Below, piece by piece: positions 6,674-40,057 of a stretch of DNA of 64,000 nt. Each line of letters starts with the position of its first letter. The stretch's first letter is position 1. Under the pieces are notes generated by a model that worked only from the letters and a program-made list of their open reading frames with translations, was not told the origin of the DNA and did not search any database. This DNA comes from Candidatus Woesearchaeota archaeon. Lineage in GTDB: Archaea; Nanobdellota; Nanobdellia; Woesearchaeales; GW2011-AR9. The stretch lies in NCBI GenBank assembly GCA_945861715.1, contig CAMAVK010000003.1, positions 129,344 through 193,343 of the forward strand. The letters are read 5' to 3'. The position numbers and the translations under genes are program-made.

Positions 6674-6931
6674 CTAATCCCTATAAAACGTCTTTGGACA
6701 TGTACCCCTTGACTCATAAAATCGCGCACAGTTCTCAAGAAACTGCTCACGAGGGGGAAGAGTTGTATCTGCGCTCAACTTCTCTGGCAATAATTCATAA
6801 AGACGTAAATCGTCAACCCAACAGCGTCCATGGCCTTTCTCATCTCGATGTTCCCGAATACCTGTACGTAATCTGATAATCTCATCCTTAAGTCCCGAAG
6901 TTGTTAGCAACTCCAAATCAGAATCATCCAA
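6674..6931 (-). CDS. Small conserved protein with an [17 protein letters not shown] motif
   Basis: Coding signal [45 protein letters not shown]; likely TTG start at 6931 overlapping the cdc48 stop. The longer ORF to 7039 would overlap cdc48. Confidence 0.6.
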
Positions 6932-9404
6932 AGTATCCCACCTTCTCTTCCTTGATTTGTTTTGCCCGAGCTGTGGAAAAATAACTCTCAAGCTCCTTAT
7001 ACGTCTCTTCAATTTCCTTATCAATTGACGGACGAACAACCTTAAGCGCAGCTTCTAAATGTGTCCACGAAACCTTTGAAGCACCATGATCTTCACGTAA
7101 TGCAATCATTGCAGCTTCACGTGCAACTGCTTCAATATCCGCACCAACATATCCTTCTGTTTTTTCAGCAAGTGCTGTCACAAACGCTTCTTTTTGTTCA
7201 ACCGTCGCAACAGGAACAACCACAACGGTATCAGGATCTCCACTTGCCGACTTCAAATCTGTTTGTACTTCTTCTTTACTTCGATTCTTAATCACTTTCC
7301 TCACAACTTTCTTTTCCGTGCTCACAACTATTGCCTCATTCGTTCCAAGGGTGGTAAAATCAACCGGAATTCCATGCAAATGAACTGCAAAAATTCGTTT
7401 ACGAGTTTCAAAATCAGGTACGGGTGTATAAATGATTCTATCAAAGCGACCAGGGCGAAGGAGTGCCGGATCCATAATGTCGGGTCGATTAGTCGCAGCA
7501 ATTACAACCACATCATTAAGTGCAGTAAGACCATCCATTTCTGTGAGCATCTGATTTACAATTTTATCATTTGCGCGAGCGCCACCATCTTGTGATTGTC
7601 CACTACGTTTTGGAACGAGGGCATCAATTTCATCAAAAAATAAAATCGTAGGAGCCGTCTGTCGTGCTTTTCTAAAAATTTCACGAACTGCCTTCTCCGA
7701 TTCTCCAACCCACTTCGAAAGAAGTGATGGTCCATTAATCAAAATGAAGTTTGCTTCCGATTCTTTAGCTACAGCTTTTGCAAGCATTGTCTTACCTGTT
7801 CCTGGCGGACCATAGAGTAAAATTCCTCGAGGAGGTCGAATTCCCATCCGTTTGAATACTTCAGGTTGCTTGAGCGGCCATTCAACAGATTCCTTCAATT
7901 TATCTTTAGTATCTTCAAGTCCACCCACATCACTCCAACTTACATCGGGTATTTCTACCATTACCTCACGCATCGCGCTTGGTCGAACAATCTTGAGTGC
8001 ATCAACGAAATCTCGTTGTACAACTTCAAGTTTCTCTAATATCTCAGGAGGAATTGGTTGCCCATCCTCAATTCCTTCCATTTTCAAATCAGGTAAAATA
8101 CGTCGTAACACAATCATCGCAGCTTCCTTAGTGAGACTACTCAAATCAGCTCCCACAAATCCATGCGTTACTTTTGCAATATCCTTTAGTACCACATCTT
8201 TGCCTAAAGGCATGTTCCTCGTATGAATTTTCAAAATATCAAGTCTACCATTTTTATCAGGAGCGCCAATTTCAATCTCTCTGTCAAACCTACCCGGCCT
8301 GCGAAGAGCGATGTCTATTAAGTTTGGCATATTGGTTGCAGCAATAACAATCACCTTGCCACGCGATTTCATGCCATCCATCAAACCAAGCAACTGTGCA
8401 ACAACACGTTTTTCAACATCCCCTTTTGCTTCCTCACGTTTGGTTGCAATCGCATCAATCTCATCAAAGAAAATAATCGATGGAGCATTTTGCTCCGCTT
8501 CCAAAAATTTGTCTCGAAGATTCTTTTCCGACTCCCCATAAAACTTAGAGATTACTTCGGGACCATTAATAATAATAAAATGACTATTCGTTTCATTCGC
8601 AACTGCTTTAGCAAGTAACGTTTTACCCGTTCCAGGAGGACCATGTAACAATACTCCTTTAGGTGGTTCAATACCAAGTTTCTCAAAAATCTCAGGATGC
8701 TTAAGTGGCAATTCAACCATCTCTCGAACTTTCTTAATCTCCTCTTCAAGACCACCAATATCCTCGTAATTAATACCAAGACTTACTGCCTCTTCTTCCT
8801 TTGCTTCAACAGCATGCGGATTAAACTCAACCTCTGTCTCCTCCGTTACAATCAGAATTTCTTTTTTAGGAACACAATCCACCACAACAAACTTGATATC
8901 TCCAAAACCAAACGATGCAAACTGATTTTCCATCATTGAAAAAATATCAGACATCTGATGCTCCTGTGAAGTCATTCGTCGCTTGGCTCGACCAAGTGAT
9001 ACAATGTCCCCCTTTACAATCGCTTTACCAAGAAGTCCATATTTAAACAATTGAGGGGACGCTTTAACCATTACTCCTTTATTAGCTGGAGCAATGATCA
9101 CCTTTTTTGCCGGCTTTAAATCCGCCTTTTGAACTGTGACCATATCACCAATACCCGTGCGAGCATTACGACGAATATTACCATCCATACGAATAATATT
9201 CAAGCCAATATCACCCGGATACGCACGATCAACAATCGCCGCAGTAACACGTTCGCCTTTAATCAGAACAATATCTCCAGGAGCGCAGCCAATCTTGCGA
9301 ATAAAATTAGAATCAATCTTGACAATGCCCTTATTAACATCATCTTGCACAGCTTCCATAACTTTAAGCTTAATTTCACCCACTTTTTCCGTAGTTTCCA
9401 TCAA
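6924..9404 (-). CDS. cdc48: Cdc48/VCP-type AAA ATPase
   Basis: N-domain plus two AAA modules ([17 protein letters not shown]..., [18 protein letters not shown]...), Walker B FFDEIDA twice. Confidence 0.97.
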
Positions 9405-33976: not shown

Positions 33977-35095
33977 TTACGCAGCTCTAAATTGGAGAAC
34001 ATTTCCGTTATTAAAACCATCATTCATCCAGGTTTCAAGCCCCACTTTTTCGATTCGTTGAGAAATATCCTTCATTAACTCCTTTATTGCTTCCTCTGGC
34101 TCCCTTCCTAAACCATCCGGAGAAGCAAAACTCGCACCTCGAAATTGAAACTCAAATTTATTCCAAGATGAATTGAATGTTGCTGAAACACCGCAATTTC
34201 GCTTCGCAGCACTTGAACCTTCAAGAAGAACTTCAAAGGCTATCTTCGCAACAACAACTGGAATCTCAGGAACATCTTGTAAAAATGGGGAATTAATTTC
34301 AATAAATTTGTTCGCCTCCCCCATATTTTGTAAAGAATGAACAAATAGGGCCGTGTCTTCATTCGCTTTCTTGCGAACCTCATTAGATAGATCAATTACT
34401 TTGACTTTCCAGGGTTTCAAAACCTTATCCAAACCTAATTTCAACGCAACCGCATAATTTTTCTTATTCTTATCCAAATAAGAGTTTGCCAAATTTTGAC
34501 GTTGTTGAACCCATTCATAATTCTCAACATGCAACAAAACATGAATCGCAGCGAGTCGAGAATGAAAATCAGCATACACATTCAATAGCATTCCAACCAC
34601 AAACTGTGTTGGTTCTCCTCTTAAAAACATCCTCAAATCTACCTGTACTGTTGCATCTAGAATTTCTTCTTTTACATCCAATATAAGAACATCTGAATTC
34701 GTCACTTTTAATGTTAATATTCTCTTCGATAGTCTTTTAATAATCTCCAAATGCTCTGAAATTAACTTAACTTTCTCAAGCATGTGATCTTTCACTATTG
34801 GGTTTTTTCGAACTACCCCCGTGATTATTTCACCAATTGATGCCTCAATTTTATGAACATCCTCTGCTAATCGAACTAAATGAGGATGAATTCGCATAAA
34901 CAACCAAGAAGCTTCTGATATTGTCGTTTTAGTCCTCATACTTCTAGGAATGCGTCGTAACGATTCAATTGTCTGCAAGTTACGCTCAGCTGTCATAGCA
35001 GCAGCAAGAAGACCTTCTACTTCTAGAATTGTCTGTTTGAACATCATCTGTTCCTTGACAATAATCTTATCCGCTTCCTGTTGAAATCCCGCCAT
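33977..35095 (-). CDS. Hypothetical protein, paralogue A
   Basis: MAGFQQEADKIIVKEQMMF...LHVENYEWVQQRQNLANSYLDKNKKNY, aligns with the next ORF. Confidence 0.7.
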   Translation of the reverse strand: MAGFQQEADKIIVKEQMMFKQTILEVEGLLAAAMTAERNLQTIESLRRIPRSMRTKTTISEASWLFMRIHPHLVRLAEDVHKIEASIGEIITGVVRKNPIVKDHMLEKVKLISEHLEIIKRLSKRILTLKVTNSDVLILDVKEEILDATVQVDLRMFLRGEPTQFVVGMLLNVYADFHSRLAAIHVLLHVENYEWVQQRQNLANSYLDKNKKNYAVALKLGLDKVLKPWKVKVIDLSNEVRKKANEDTALFVHSLQNMGEANKFIEINSPFLQDVPEIPVVVAKIAFEVLLEGSSAAKRNCGVSATFNSSWNKFEFQFRGASFASPDGLGREPEEAIKELMKDISQRIEKVGLETWMNDGFNNGNVLQFRAA

Positions 35096-35201
35096 AATCT
35101 ATCAATAAAAAAGAATGAAATGAGACTTAATAAACCTAACTAATATGAGAAAATACCAATAAACAAAACACTCCATCAAAAAAAGTATTACTGTACGGAA
35201 T

Positions 35202-36269
35202 CTATTTAGTATGAATACCAAACTTTGTCCTAACGAAATCATCAAGACTAAATTCAGACGCCGCAATTTCTATTTTTATATTTTCATATAGTTTATCAAT
35301 TCCTTCTTCTGGCTCCAACTCAATACCACCTGGAATTGTACTATTCTCTATCCCTACACTAAATTTTCCCTTAGTACAAAGGTATTGAATCGTAATAAGC
35401 CATTCCCTAATCCCTTCCTCAACCTTAACTGAATACGTAAGAACAGTTCTCTTCAATTGTACGCTAGGAACGTTGTTAAGATAACCTCGCCCTGCATTAG
35501 ATTCCCCAGCAAGGCCAACTCCTTCTATTGCCTGTGAATAATGTCTTTCTTCTTCATAATCCCTACTTCGATCTTTGTTCAACACAACAATTGTTTTATG
35601 ACTCACTGACTTATCACGAAACGCTCTATCCAGTTGAGCTTTGATGCGCCCAATGTATCGTTGTGTATTTTTTTTCAAATACGCATTAGCAAGATTCTGT
35701 TTCTCAATCACCCAAGACTCAGCTTCCACGTGTAACAAAAGATAAACCCCTTGCAGAGTAGTATGAATACTCTCAATCATTTTAGTAATTTCAACAATAG
35801 GAGTAAAAGTTTTTGAGTCCCCAATACCATAGCTATGCTTCACGACTCGAGATTCAAAAAACTTATCCCCATCAAAATAATCTTTCTTTAGAAACAATAA
35901 TAGTCTTTGCCGTAGGGATTCTAGTGATTGAAAGGATTGGGCTTCTCGCTTTGCAACCATATCCTCAACCGTATTCACCATTTCAACATATTGATGATAA
36001 TCAGCCCCAAGTGCTCCTTCCAATTTATGAGTTTGCTTCTCTACTCGCATAATAAAAAGTTCGATTGAGTAAAGTATTTCTTGAACACGAGATGTAACGG
36101 CAGATGATCTAAAATTGTCATGTATATTGGTAGTAAACGCCTTTAACTCAGCAATCCTTTTTTCACACCGTTTATGTTCCGCAAGAATAACCTCCACTTC
36201 ACGAATAGTCACAAGGAAAATGAGCTTTTCTCTATCTATTATCTTTACTGCCTCAGATTGAAATCCCAT
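35202..36269 (-). CDS. Hypothetical protein, paralogue B
   Basis: MGFQSEAVKIIDREKLIF...LHVEAESWVIEKQNLANAYLKKNTQRY, aligns with the preceding ORF. Confidence 0.7.
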   Translation of the reverse strand: MGFQSEAVKIIDREKLIFLVTIREVEVILAEHKRCEKRIAELKAFTTNIHDNFRSSAVTSRVQEILYSIELFIMRVEKQTHKLEGALGADYHQYVEMVNTVEDMVAKREAQSFQSLESLRQRLLLFLKKDYFDGDKFFESRVVKHSYGIGDSKTFTPIVEITKMIESIHTTLQGVYLLLHVEAESWVIEKQNLANAYLKKNTQRYIGRIKAQLDRAFRDKSVSHKTIVVLNKDRSRDYEEERHYSQAIEGVGLAGESNAGRGYLNNVPSVQLKRTVLTYSVKVEEGIREWLITIQYLCTKGKFSVGIENSTIPGGIELEPEEGIDKLYENIKIEIAASEFSLDDFVRTKFGIHTK

Positions 36270-36391: not shown

Positions 36392-36805
36392 CTAATTCAC
36401 TTCCGCACTCTTCACTTTGGGTAGTGGCAGAGGGCTTGGTAAATTAATTTCTTCAGAAATTTTGATCGCCTGAATATTTCCTTTATGAAGTGCAGCATTA
36501 GCAATCTGTTCCATCACGGAACCAGGAATTTTTTTATCTTTATCCCAACCCTTCTTAATTGCTTCCACAACTAAAGTTTCATCAACAAAAAGAACCTTAC
36601 CCTCAACAACAATAGAACCTAAATCAGGTTGATACGTGCAAGTAAACGAGAAAGTAAATTTAAGCCCTTTTTTACCTTCCAAAGTAAACTCCATATCTTC
36701 AACATTTTTAAGAGAAACAGTATTATCAATTCGTACTTGACCACCAAGCGCACTCAAATTTCGCTCGGCACTTAATTTATGAACATCGATTTTAACAATT
36801 GGCAT
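36392..36805 (-). CDS. Conserved hypothetical protein
   Basis: MPIVKIDVHKLSAERN...; compact beta-rich pattern; start at ATG 36805. Confidence 0.6.
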   Translation of the reverse strand: MPIVKIDVHKLSAERNLSALGGQVRIDNTVSLKNVEDMEFTLEGKKGLKFTFSFTCTYQPDLGSIVVEGKVLFVDETLVVEAIKKGWDKDKKIPGSVMEQIANAALHKGNIQAIKISEEINLPSPLPLPKVKSAEVN

Positions 36806-36965
36806 AATGACCACCTTCTATTTTTGTAAGACAATAGACTCCAAACCACTTATTTCCTCAGTTATCTTCAAGAGCATAAAGCACTAAGCTTCTTTATAAA
36901 TTTACTGCAACAACTTTCTTTATAAGTGAAAAAATCAATCGATTAAAACTCAATCCACTTAAAAT

Positions 36966-37757
36966 TTAAACCACCTTACCTTTAGAAAAACCATACAAAT
37001 GTCGTCTCGTTGCCTGAGGATTTCCAGAATTAATCACAACTGATTCTGCAAATTCCAAAACATCCTTCGGCTCTTCTACAAGTAATCTTGCAAGACTTTC
37101 CTCTTTCAACATATTTGAAATCACATGGGAATCACACGTGGCAATGCGCAGCGCAAGAGTACCCGTATCTTCACGCCACTCACGAGTAAACGTATCCACC
37201 AAATAAATAGTAGGCACGCCATCGCAATATAAATTCTTCATTATTGCCTCATTATATGCTCCCAAAACATAAAGAAATCGTTGTTCTGCATTGCACAACT
37301 TCCAATCCACTTTGCGAAGGTAACGAGCTACATGGGTTTCACCAACACCAATTGCACAATAATGATCAATCTTTTTTGGCTTTAATGATCCATACTCCAA
37401 CTCAAACATATCTCCTGGAGATAAAGCAACAACTACATCACACGTAAACTCCTCCGCAGGCGGCAACACTTTTTGCATTTTCAAACAACTATCCCGTGCA
37501 TTCTCCAGAGTAAATTGATTAGCTAAGTTATATCGGGCAACAATTTGTTCAATGGAAATATTCCCTTGGCAACTATCTAAAAGAATATCGCAGCACTCTG
37601 CATTGCCAGATGCCCCAATAATATAATGTAGCCCTGCAAGTATTTTGGGAGTATATTCTTTTGATTCTTCCTGTAAAGTTTCCTCACAAGAAATAAGTTG
37701 ATCTCCAATAACGACCGCCAAATCATCGCAAAGCCGAGCACCAATAATAATAGTCAT
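36966..37757 (-). CDS. Proteasome/HslV-like Ntn-hydrolase family protein (copy 1)
   Basis: MTIIIGARLCDDLAVVIGDQLIS...TPKILAGLHYIIGASGNAECCDILLD...YCAIGVGETHVARYL. Start placed at ATG 37757 (ORF track runs to 37877). Confidence 0.72.
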   Translation of the reverse strand: MTIIIGARLCDDLAVVIGDQLISCEETLQEESKEYTPKILAGLHYIIGASGNAECCDILLDSCQGNISIEQIVARYNLANQFTLENARDSCLKMQKVLPPAEEFTCDVVVALSPGDMFELEYGSLKPKKIDHYCAIGVGETHVARYLRKVDWKLCNAEQRFLYVLGAYNEAIMKNLYCDGVPTIYLVDTFTREWREDTGTLALRIATCDSHVISNMLKEESLARLLVEEPKDVLEFAESVVINSGNPQATRRHLYGFSKGKVV

Positions 37758-37851
37758 ACCCCATTCAGGCAATGCTTTTTTTAAAAAGATAACTCTCTTT
37801 TTTAGCACAAAACCAACCAAACCAACCATAACAAATCCAACAAACGAACCT

Positions 37852-38661
37852 CTAATTAGGCATGGGAAGAAATCCATCCAACAAAGCTTTTCCGCGCTCT
37901 ATCTTTGGACCACGAAGCTGTCCCAAAACCAACTCGCGTACGTTTCTATAATCCTCGCCATCAAGTAAATGCTCTATCCCAGATTTAGCAACCTTTGGTG
38001 CTAAAAGTCCATTCGTAAACCCTCGCTCAATACGTTGCATAAGAATAGTTGAAGAATAGTTAATTGACATGAACTGATGACCAAAAATGAGATAAATTGA
38101 AGGAACTCCGCCACAACCTATAACCGACTCCACACTATTATGATACGCATGAAGTAATGCAAGCATAGATTCACTTCGACTAAGTTTAGACCAGTCTGAC
38201 ACCGGCGCAATATGTCCAAGCGTGTCAAATGCAATATTTGATCCATTACCTGTTGCCACATATGCTGTTCCCACTTTAAGACCTTTACTCGTGAATTCAC
38301 GCAAGGGATATGCATCGTTTGCTCGAACAGAAATAATTGATGATGCCCGAGTATAACGAGATCGACTTGAAATTGATCCAATAGTTGATGTTTTTCTAAA
38401 TTCTCTTCGTATTTCTAAGTATTCTGCAACTGACAAATAATGAGTTCTAACATCATTACTAGTTCCCCTATTAGTATCTTTTTCTTTGAAAAAATCCCAA
38501 AACGGGACTATCCCACTAAACCCTAATACTTCCGTTCCCTGTTCTGTTGGACGCACCATTAATTTAGAAGGATAATACAGCTTTTCTTGTCCACTACTCG
38601 CCTGCGTATCAGCCATCACAATAGAATAATCCTTCTGTGCAGCACCAATTACAATCGTCAT
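37852..38661 (-). CDS. Proteasome/HslV-like Ntn-hydrolase family protein (copy 2)
   Basis: MTIVIGAAQKDYSIVMADTQASSG...YPSKLMV...EVLGFSG...YVATGNGSNIAFDTLG; Thr at residue 2, Asp at position 17 counting Thr as 1. Confidence 0.75.
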   Translation of the reverse strand: MTIVIGAAQKDYSIVMADTQASSGQEKLYYPSKLMVRPTEQGTEVLGFSGIVPFWDFFKEKDTNRGTSNDVRTHYLSVAEYLEIRREFRKTSTIGSISSRSRYTRASSIISVRANDAYPLREFTSKGLKVGTAYVATGNGSNIAFDTLGHIAPVSDWSKLSRSESMLALLHAYHNSVESVIGCGGVPSIYLIFGHQFMSINYSSTILMQRIERGFTNGLLAPKVAKSGIEHLLDGEDYRNVRELVLGQLRGPKIERGKALLDGFLPMPN

Positions 38662-38800: not shown

Positions 38801-39394
38801 ATGAGGAAAAAGACCATGGAAGAATACCACACACCCAAAATAAATACACAAGCACCAACGTTCACAACCAAATCGTATCATAACGGAAAAGATACTACTA
38901 TCAATCTAACCGATTACAAAGGAAAATGGGTCATACTTTTCTTTTACCCTGCAGACTTTACATTCATATGTCCAACTGAGTTAGGTGACATGGCAGACCA
39001 CTACAGTGCATTCCAACAACTCGGAGTAGAAATACTGAGCGTATCAACAGATACGCTTTTTGTTCATAAGGCATGGCATGACAACTCACCAACTATTGCA
39101 AAAATTAAATTCCCAATGCTTGCCGACCCAACCGGAACTATTTGCAAAGCCTACGGAACATATATTCCAAGCGAAGGTCTTGCACTGAGGGGAACATTCA
39201 TTATTGATCCTGACGGAGTCCTCAAATCCTACGAATTAAATGACAACAGCATTGGACGATCTTCTGTTGAACTCATTCGAAAAATCAACGCCGCCCAGTT
39301 TGTACGAACACACGGTGGAGAAGTTTGTCCAGCCAATTGGAATCCAGGATCAAAAACTCTCAAACCAGGTCTTGATTTAGTGGGGAAAATATAA
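38801..39394 (+). CDS. AhpC-type 2-Cys peroxiredoxin
   Basis: FFYPADFTFICPTELGDMAD and C-terminal GGEVCPANW. Confidence 0.95.
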   Translation: MRKKTMEEYHTPKINTQAPTFTTKSYHNGKDTTINLTDYKGKWVILFFYPADFTFICPTELGDMADHYSAFQQLGVEILSVSTDTLFVHKAWHDNSPTIAKIKFPMLADPTGTICKAYGTYIPSEGLALRGTFIIDPDGVLKSYELNDNSIGRSSVELIRKINAAQFVRTHGGEVCPANWNPGSKTLKPGLDLVGKI

Positions 39395-39460
39395 TCATTA
39401 TCCTCAGTGTCAACAATAAATAACAAAATACGACTACAAAACATATCGGAGAACACTATC

Positions 39461-40057
39461 ATGGCATACGAACCCAAAAATTTTGAACACCTACTTGGCC
39501 TACCAGGCTTTAGTGAGAACTTACTCAAGAACCACTTCACCCTCTATCAAGGCTATGTAACAAATACGAACAAAGTACGAGACCTGCTCTCAAATTTGCT
39601 AAAAGAAGGAAAAACGGCAACACCTGAATTTGCAGAATTAACAAGACGCTTAGGTTGGGAATTCAATGGTATGCGGCTTCACGAATTATACTTTAGCAAT
39701 CTCAGCAAAACACCATCAAAACTCTCAGCAACAAATCCACTTGGAAAGAAAATCCAAGAACAATTTGGATCCATTGAAAATTGGGAAAAAGAAGCAAGAG
39801 CAATTTGTACCATGCGTGGCATAGGCTGGGCTGTCCTCTACTTTGATCATATAAATAATCAGCTCATAAACTGCTGGGTCAATGAACACGACGTAGGCCA
39901 CCTCTCAACTTGTGTACCACTCGTAGTAATTGACGTGTTTGAACACGCATACATCACGGACTTTGGCATAAAAAGAGCAGATTATGTAGACGCAATATTC
40001 AAATTCTTGGACTTCGCTCCTCTTGAAGAACGATATCTCAAAGTCGGTGGAAAGTAA
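39461..40057 (+). CDS. Fe/Mn superoxide dismutase
   Basis: LKNHFTLYQGYVTNTNKV, NGMRLHELYF, VVIDVFEHAYITDFG. Confidence 0.88.
   Translation: MAYEPKNFEHLLGLPGFSENLLKNHFTLYQGYVTNTNKVRDLLSNLLKEGKTATPEFAELTRRLGWEFNGMRLHELYFSNLSKTPSKLSATNPLGKKIQEQFGSIENWEKEARAICTMRGIGWAVLYFDHINNQLINCWVNEHDVGHLSTCVPLVVIDVFEHAYITDFGIKRADYVDAIFKFLDFAPLEERYLKVGGK

Follow-up and report, generated by a model that had tools for sequence, protein, structure and literature searches.

A pair of adjacent genes in a Woesearchaeota archaeon encodes, in our reading, two strongly diverged proteasome-like Ntn-hydrolases that lack propeptides, belong to an uncurated family scattered among Woesearchaeota-type archaea and are duplicated in tandem; with the mechanism proposed below included, we give this reading a probability of roughly 0.7. 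The pair lies within a stretch of 64,000 nucleotides, the whole of which is called the window here (Table 1). A preliminary description of this DNA had singled out two neighbouring open reading frames beginning M-T-I, and the pair exists as described. By BLASTP the products, P0001 (copy 1) and P0002 (copy 2), share 23% identity over 193 aa (E 1e-8), and on this comparison they are true paralogs.

Table 1. Genes, putative promoter elements and predicted active-site codons of the pair, in window coordinates.
Feature	Position	Strand	Basis or remark
P0002 (copy 2), proteasome-like Thr Ntn-hydrolase, 269 aa	37852..38661	minus	ORF, homology and AlphaFold2 model
P0001 (copy 1), diverged tandem paralog, 263 aa	36966..37757	minus	corrected start; the ORF caller opens the frame at 37877
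TATA box CTTAAAAA	38684..38691	minus	8/8, -30..-23 from P0002 ATG
TATA box TTTAAAAA	37778..37785	minus	8/8, -28..-21 from P0001 ATG
Thr1 codon (ACG) of P0002, N-terminal once Met is removed	38656..38658	minus	invariant, 22 homologs
Asp17 codon of P0002	38608..38610	minus	invariant, 22 homologs
Lys33-equivalent codon of P0002 (Lys32 with Thr = 1)	38563..38565	minus	invariant, 22 homologs
Thr1 codon of P0001	37752..37754	minus	ORF and homolog alignment
Asp17-equivalent codon of P0001 (Asp18 with Thr = 1)	37701..37703	minus	homolog alignment
Lys33-equivalent codon of P0001 (Lys32 with Thr = 1)	37659..37661	minus	homolog alignment; model low-confidence here

Translation starts and putative promoters

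Both translated frames open with Met-Thr. TATA boxes matching at all eight positions are correctly spaced from both ATGs, an arrangement found before only ~0.4% of all ATGs when the whole window was scanned (the scan resolves ties toward -30, which slightly biases the exact spacing), and the Met-Thr starts therefore look real. The ORF caller's start for P0001 lies inside P0002; it was dropped in favour of 37757, the choice favoured by the upstream box. TATA boxes at such distances are the pattern expected for leaderless archaeal mRNAs. Boxes matching at seven or eight of eight positions at -30..-23 also precede the topoisomerase I, RtcB, peroxiredoxin, transglycosylase and TrmB regulator genes, and the presence of a TATA-like box at this distance in many genes of the window suggests that leaderless mRNAs are common in the source genome. 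P0001 and P0002 thus most likely begin at Met-Thr and would be made without a propeptide, as the preliminary description proposed. Their absence is nothing new in itself: among all proteasome-like families, propeptides are reported only from proteasome beta subunits and HslV (PMC8665760).

Homology to the proteasome

Neither protein is recognised by Pfam or NCBIfam, the curated cut-offs of PF00227 and TIGR03634 not being reached. The best Pfam match for either is a sub-threshold Proteasome match of P0002 to PF00227 (E 0.23; 11.5 bits against a cut-off of 22.4), P0001 has no PF00227 match, and NCBIfam at E<=1 returned nothing for the family members beyond a weak archaeal beta match to one of them (L012) and one unrelated match. 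Scores of this kind would suit the view that the resemblance is fortuitous and that the two ORFs are not Ntn-hydrolases, a view that independent profile, fold and residue-conservation evidence renders scarcely credible. A profile of the family built without the window proteins found P0002 at E 1e-12 in a search of ~1000 sequences, in which the best shuffle reached E 0.9. A 14-sequence profile, again without the window proteins, had HslV (5ji3) as its best match in the PDB at E 7e-4 and also matched 20S beta, and 30 of its 33 matches at E<1 were proteasome or HslV. Because P0002 is found by an independent profile that itself finds HslV and the proteasome, chance resemblance is refuted for this copy.

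Further comparisons point the same way. An eight-member family profile placed proteasome alpha and beta at the top of its PDB matches and also picked up canonical 20S beta in related genomes, which ties the family to the proteasome. In profile-profile comparison the family aligned with archaeal beta at E 1.6e-6 (probability 90%, 183 columns) and with archaeal alpha at E 4.4e-5 (probability 69%, 96 columns). The profiles built without the window proteins gave P0001 non-significant values (E 0.06-1.1), so that its assignment goes via P0002 and its AlphaFold2 model, and confidence in it is lower than in P0002; a two-sequence profile of P0001 and P0002 matched no proteasome in the PDB.

Predicted fold

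Both proteins were modelled with AlphaFold2 from six sequences, the input alignment taking in members of the wider family. The model of P0002 is of moderate confidence (pLDDT 73.4, pTM 0.75), and the best of five models of P0001 reaches pLDDT 68.3 and pTM 0.72, with residues 21-66, the active-site lysine among them, mostly at low confidence; the other four models of P0001 lie at pLDDT 48-54. Foldseek searches of the PDB returned 20S beta subunits as the best matches for both. For P0002 the best 50 of 837 matches at E<=0.001 were all proteasome subunits (best E 2e-7); for P0001 the matches listed, of 610 at the same threshold, were 20S subunits and Anbu (best E 9e-7). The viral matches were phage HslV-like and proteasome-like proteins. 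TM-scores of 0.42-0.65 mark this as a diverged version of the proteasome fold. The models support a proteasome-beta fold for P0001 and P0002, in agreement with the proteasome/HslV-like Ntn fold named in the preliminary description. Two helices are predicted in the H1/H2 region of each (55-60 and 68-92; 53-62 and 69-94), partly at low confidence, and both models have a longer C-terminus with extra helices than 20S subunits.

Conservation of the active site

The equivalents of Thr1, Asp17 and Lys33 are kept in all 22 sequences of the family alignment, most of which are 15-35% identical, and both glycines of the G-x-G loop are invariant too. Invariance of the Thr/Asp/Lys set across 22 diverged homologs exceeds what chance would give to a motif layout. 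Neither of the outcomes that the preliminary description had named as fatal to its reading, a predicted structure lacking the alpha-beta-beta-alpha Ntn fold or homologs in which the Thr and the Asp17/Lys33 equivalents vary, was observed. The preliminary description had placed Asp17 and a Lys at about 32 in copy 2 and Asp18 in copy 1, which is confirmed (the Lys is Lys32), and had listed G-[AF]-S-G and Y-x-A-x-G-x-G segments, which are present in both; copy 1 has Lys32 as well. One family member (L060) has a reading frame that opens with Val at the start position, as a GTG start would give. The conserved alignment column closest to Gly47 of the oxyanion hole has Gly in P0001, P0002 and 20/22 homologs. 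At the equivalent of Ser129 in the G-S-G loop, an equivalence read off a profile alignment with 20S and not off a structure, 18/22 sequences have Ser; P0002 has Asn and P0001 has Val. Replacement of this residue in both copies could mean weakened or altered catalysis. P0001 has also lost the GVGG segment, where it reads YCDG.

Distribution of the family and origin of the pair

At E<=0.001 the eight-member profile matched 30 of the 371 genomes of the phylum (Woesearchaeota-type). About 10 of them correspond in length and span to canonical 20S beta, one (L072) having been checked directly, and the diverged family is found in ~20/371 genomes, about 5%. The scan of the genome-contig collection used a three-sequence alignment, two others (A2 and A3) being too diverged for such scans. 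No relatives were detected in viral contigs scanned with two alignments, nor by tblastn of L030 against plasmids and phages, and PADLOC returned nothing for P0001 or P0002. A literature search, incomplete in coverage, turned up nothing on proteins of this kind in Woesearchaeota.

Two M-T-start proteins of 238 and ~275 aa (L070 and L073) branch in the tree with canonical beta and not with the main family; they possibly represent other proteasome-like families.

Within the maximum-likelihood tree P0001 and P0002 cluster with support of 91/84, a grouping that, as the tree program warns, may be a long-branch effect. Duplication is the most economical explanation of their common short length, a common GVP[ST]IYL segment and their arrangement in tandem. 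Adjacent copies occur in the source genome only: the loci of other members show one copy within ~1.5 kb in the family genomes examined. We conclude from these comparisons that the duplication is probably specific to the source lineage and that both copies are without the Ser129-equivalent.

The preliminary description had suggested that the pair could form a hetero-oligomeric peptidase. One copy, probably P0002, would be catalytic and P0001 structural or regulatory, in an obligate assembly like beta and alpha in 20S. The adjacency and clustering of the paralogs fit this arrangement, as do the longer branch of P0001 (2.34 against 1.96 changes per column) and its loss of both GVGG and the Ser129-equivalent. 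P0001 nevertheless retains Thr, Asp and Lys, unlike the inactive proteasome alpha; each gene has a TATA box of its own; the grouping is open to the long-branch effect just mentioned; and every other family genome examined has a single copy at the locus. We regard an obligate hetero-oligomer as speculative and rather unlikely. More doubtful again is a fuller version, in which the pair would be a two-subunit enzyme of a DPANN-specific family outside the 22 clusters described by others (see below), both subunits keeping Thr1/Asp17/Lys33 with Ser129 replaced, and would act beside canonical 20S as an amidase or ligase that is hetero-oligomeric and works by a modified mechanism.

Relation to known proteasome-like proteins

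Another 22 families of proteasome-like proteins, PHI, PMI-1 to PMI-6, WPH and ACC among them, have been described by Fuchs, Alva and Lupas (2021); they share this core and triad, and for them the authors found neither a genomic context nor an AAA+ partner; DPANN, Nanoarchaeota and tandem pairs are unmentioned in the main text (PMC8665760). The window pair resembles these families in its extremely diverged proteasome-beta fold, its retention of Thr1/Asp17/Lys33/Gly47, its lack of a propeptide, its co-occurrence with a canonical proteasome and its unconserved genomic context. It differs from them in the absence of the Ser129-equivalent, and from PHI and PMI in that the insertion after H1/H2 is largely missing from P0001 and P0002, extra residues being present in the single-copy relatives. 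By this likeness, which is one of description only, the pair probably belongs to a further family within the known class.

With 20S beta (TIGR03634, PF00227) the pair shares the fold, the Thr1/Asp17/Lys33 layout and the G-x-G loop. The source genome (1.3 Mb, 98% complete) encodes canonical 20S alpha and beta elsewhere, and P0001 and P0002 are additional to these psmA and psmB products, which bears out the earlier suggestion of a system distinct from the canonical 20S. Since canonical subunits of the same fold are present in the cell, P0001 and P0002 might be imagined as alternative beta subunits built into its own 20S proteasome. We consider this very improbable: identity to 20S subunits is only ~12-15%, under the Pfam cut-off, the predicted C-terminus is longer, with its extra helices, and the family's occurrence in a small fraction of the phylum stands against canonical PF00227 proteins in 13/13 genomes checked.

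HslV is the best PDB sequence match of the family profile and has a comparable TTI...GD.Q layout, but it is about 175 aa long against 263-269 aa for the pair, and TIGR00390 finds no hslU in the source genome at E<=0.001. Anbu structures (5loy, 5nyw) rank high among the folds matched by P0001, at TM-scores of ~0.55, and share with the pair extra C-terminal helices, whereas no NCBIfam or Pfam model for Anbu is matched among family members at E<=1.

Connectase (DUF2121) is, like the pair, an archaeal propeptide-less proteasome homolog; it is monomeric, and it shows that protein ligation exists as a chemistry in the class (PMC8665760). The pair might likewise be a specific protein ligase, its Thr1 acyl-enzyme being handed to the N-terminus of another protein, and the absence of an AAA+ neighbour would fit. 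However, DUF2121, one of the Pfam families scanned, is unmatched at E<=1 in 8/8 family members; connectase lacks H1/H2 and has a two-helix insertion between S3 and S4, whereas both models place helices in the H1/H2 region, in part at low confidence; and connectase has been reported from Euryarchaeota only (PMC8665760). A connectase-like ligase is, in our estimate, improbable.

Genomic neighbourhood

The source genome has several AAA+ genes. The Cdc48 gene to which the preliminary description drew attention (6924-9404; CDC48_N and two AAA domains) does lie 27.5 kb from the pair, but at this distance, and with no common neighbourhood in relatives, a partnership was rejected and the functional tie is speculative. 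Across 19 relative loci no neighbour is shared beyond close relatives. A TrmB-type regulator lies near two relatives and 6 kb from the pair in the window. Peroxiredoxin and superoxide dismutase genes (38801-40057) are divergent from P0002, which may be coincidence. The genes 3' of P0001, one at 36392-36814 and two coiled-coil-rich paralogs, are loosely spaced from it. The latter (33977-36269) form a tandem pair of their own, with 25% identity (E 8e-27) and no significant Pfam match; having relatives in 1 other of 193 genomes, and thus almost no homologs in the phylum and a spread unlike that of the proteasome-like family, they were set aside as partners.

Two other loci in the phylum deserve mention. 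At L115 (G079:C23, 4016-8053) only a few bases separate a gene for an AAA+ ATPase (785 aa) from the proteasome-like gene that comes after it, and a gene for a 302-aa protein is next. The proteasome-like product has an M-T start, 257 aa, Asp17, a Lys at 34 and a PF00227 match at E 1e-5. This arrangement occurs in 1/371 genomes and contrasts with the lack of AAA+ partners among the families of PMC8665760. At L084 (G082:C21, 1179-2747) two adjacent genes look like proteasome beta and alpha of the bacterial type (PF00227, E 6e-22 and 0.015), in addition to two canonical copies in that genome.

Proposed mechanism and implications

We propose that methionine aminopeptidase would take off Met1 and so expose Thr1, whose hydroxyl, with Asp17 and Lys33, would attack an amide bond, the Gly47-equivalent providing the oxyanion hole. 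The resulting acyl-enzyme would be resolved by water, as in a peptidase, or possibly by another amine, as in a ligase. P0001 and P0002 would act apart from the canonical 20S; their substrates would probably be specific or small, and no dedicated AAA+ partner would be involved.

The proteasome-like class far exceeds the proteasome itself in size, and, since connectase, a characterised member, is a protein ligase, each uncharacterised family is a candidate for a new activity. The 22 sequences with an invariant triad supplied here can be used for expression and probe labelling. Our results place the class, as several diverged subgroups that neither Pfam nor NCBIfam recognises, in DPANN archaea with small genomes and a 20S proteasome of their own.
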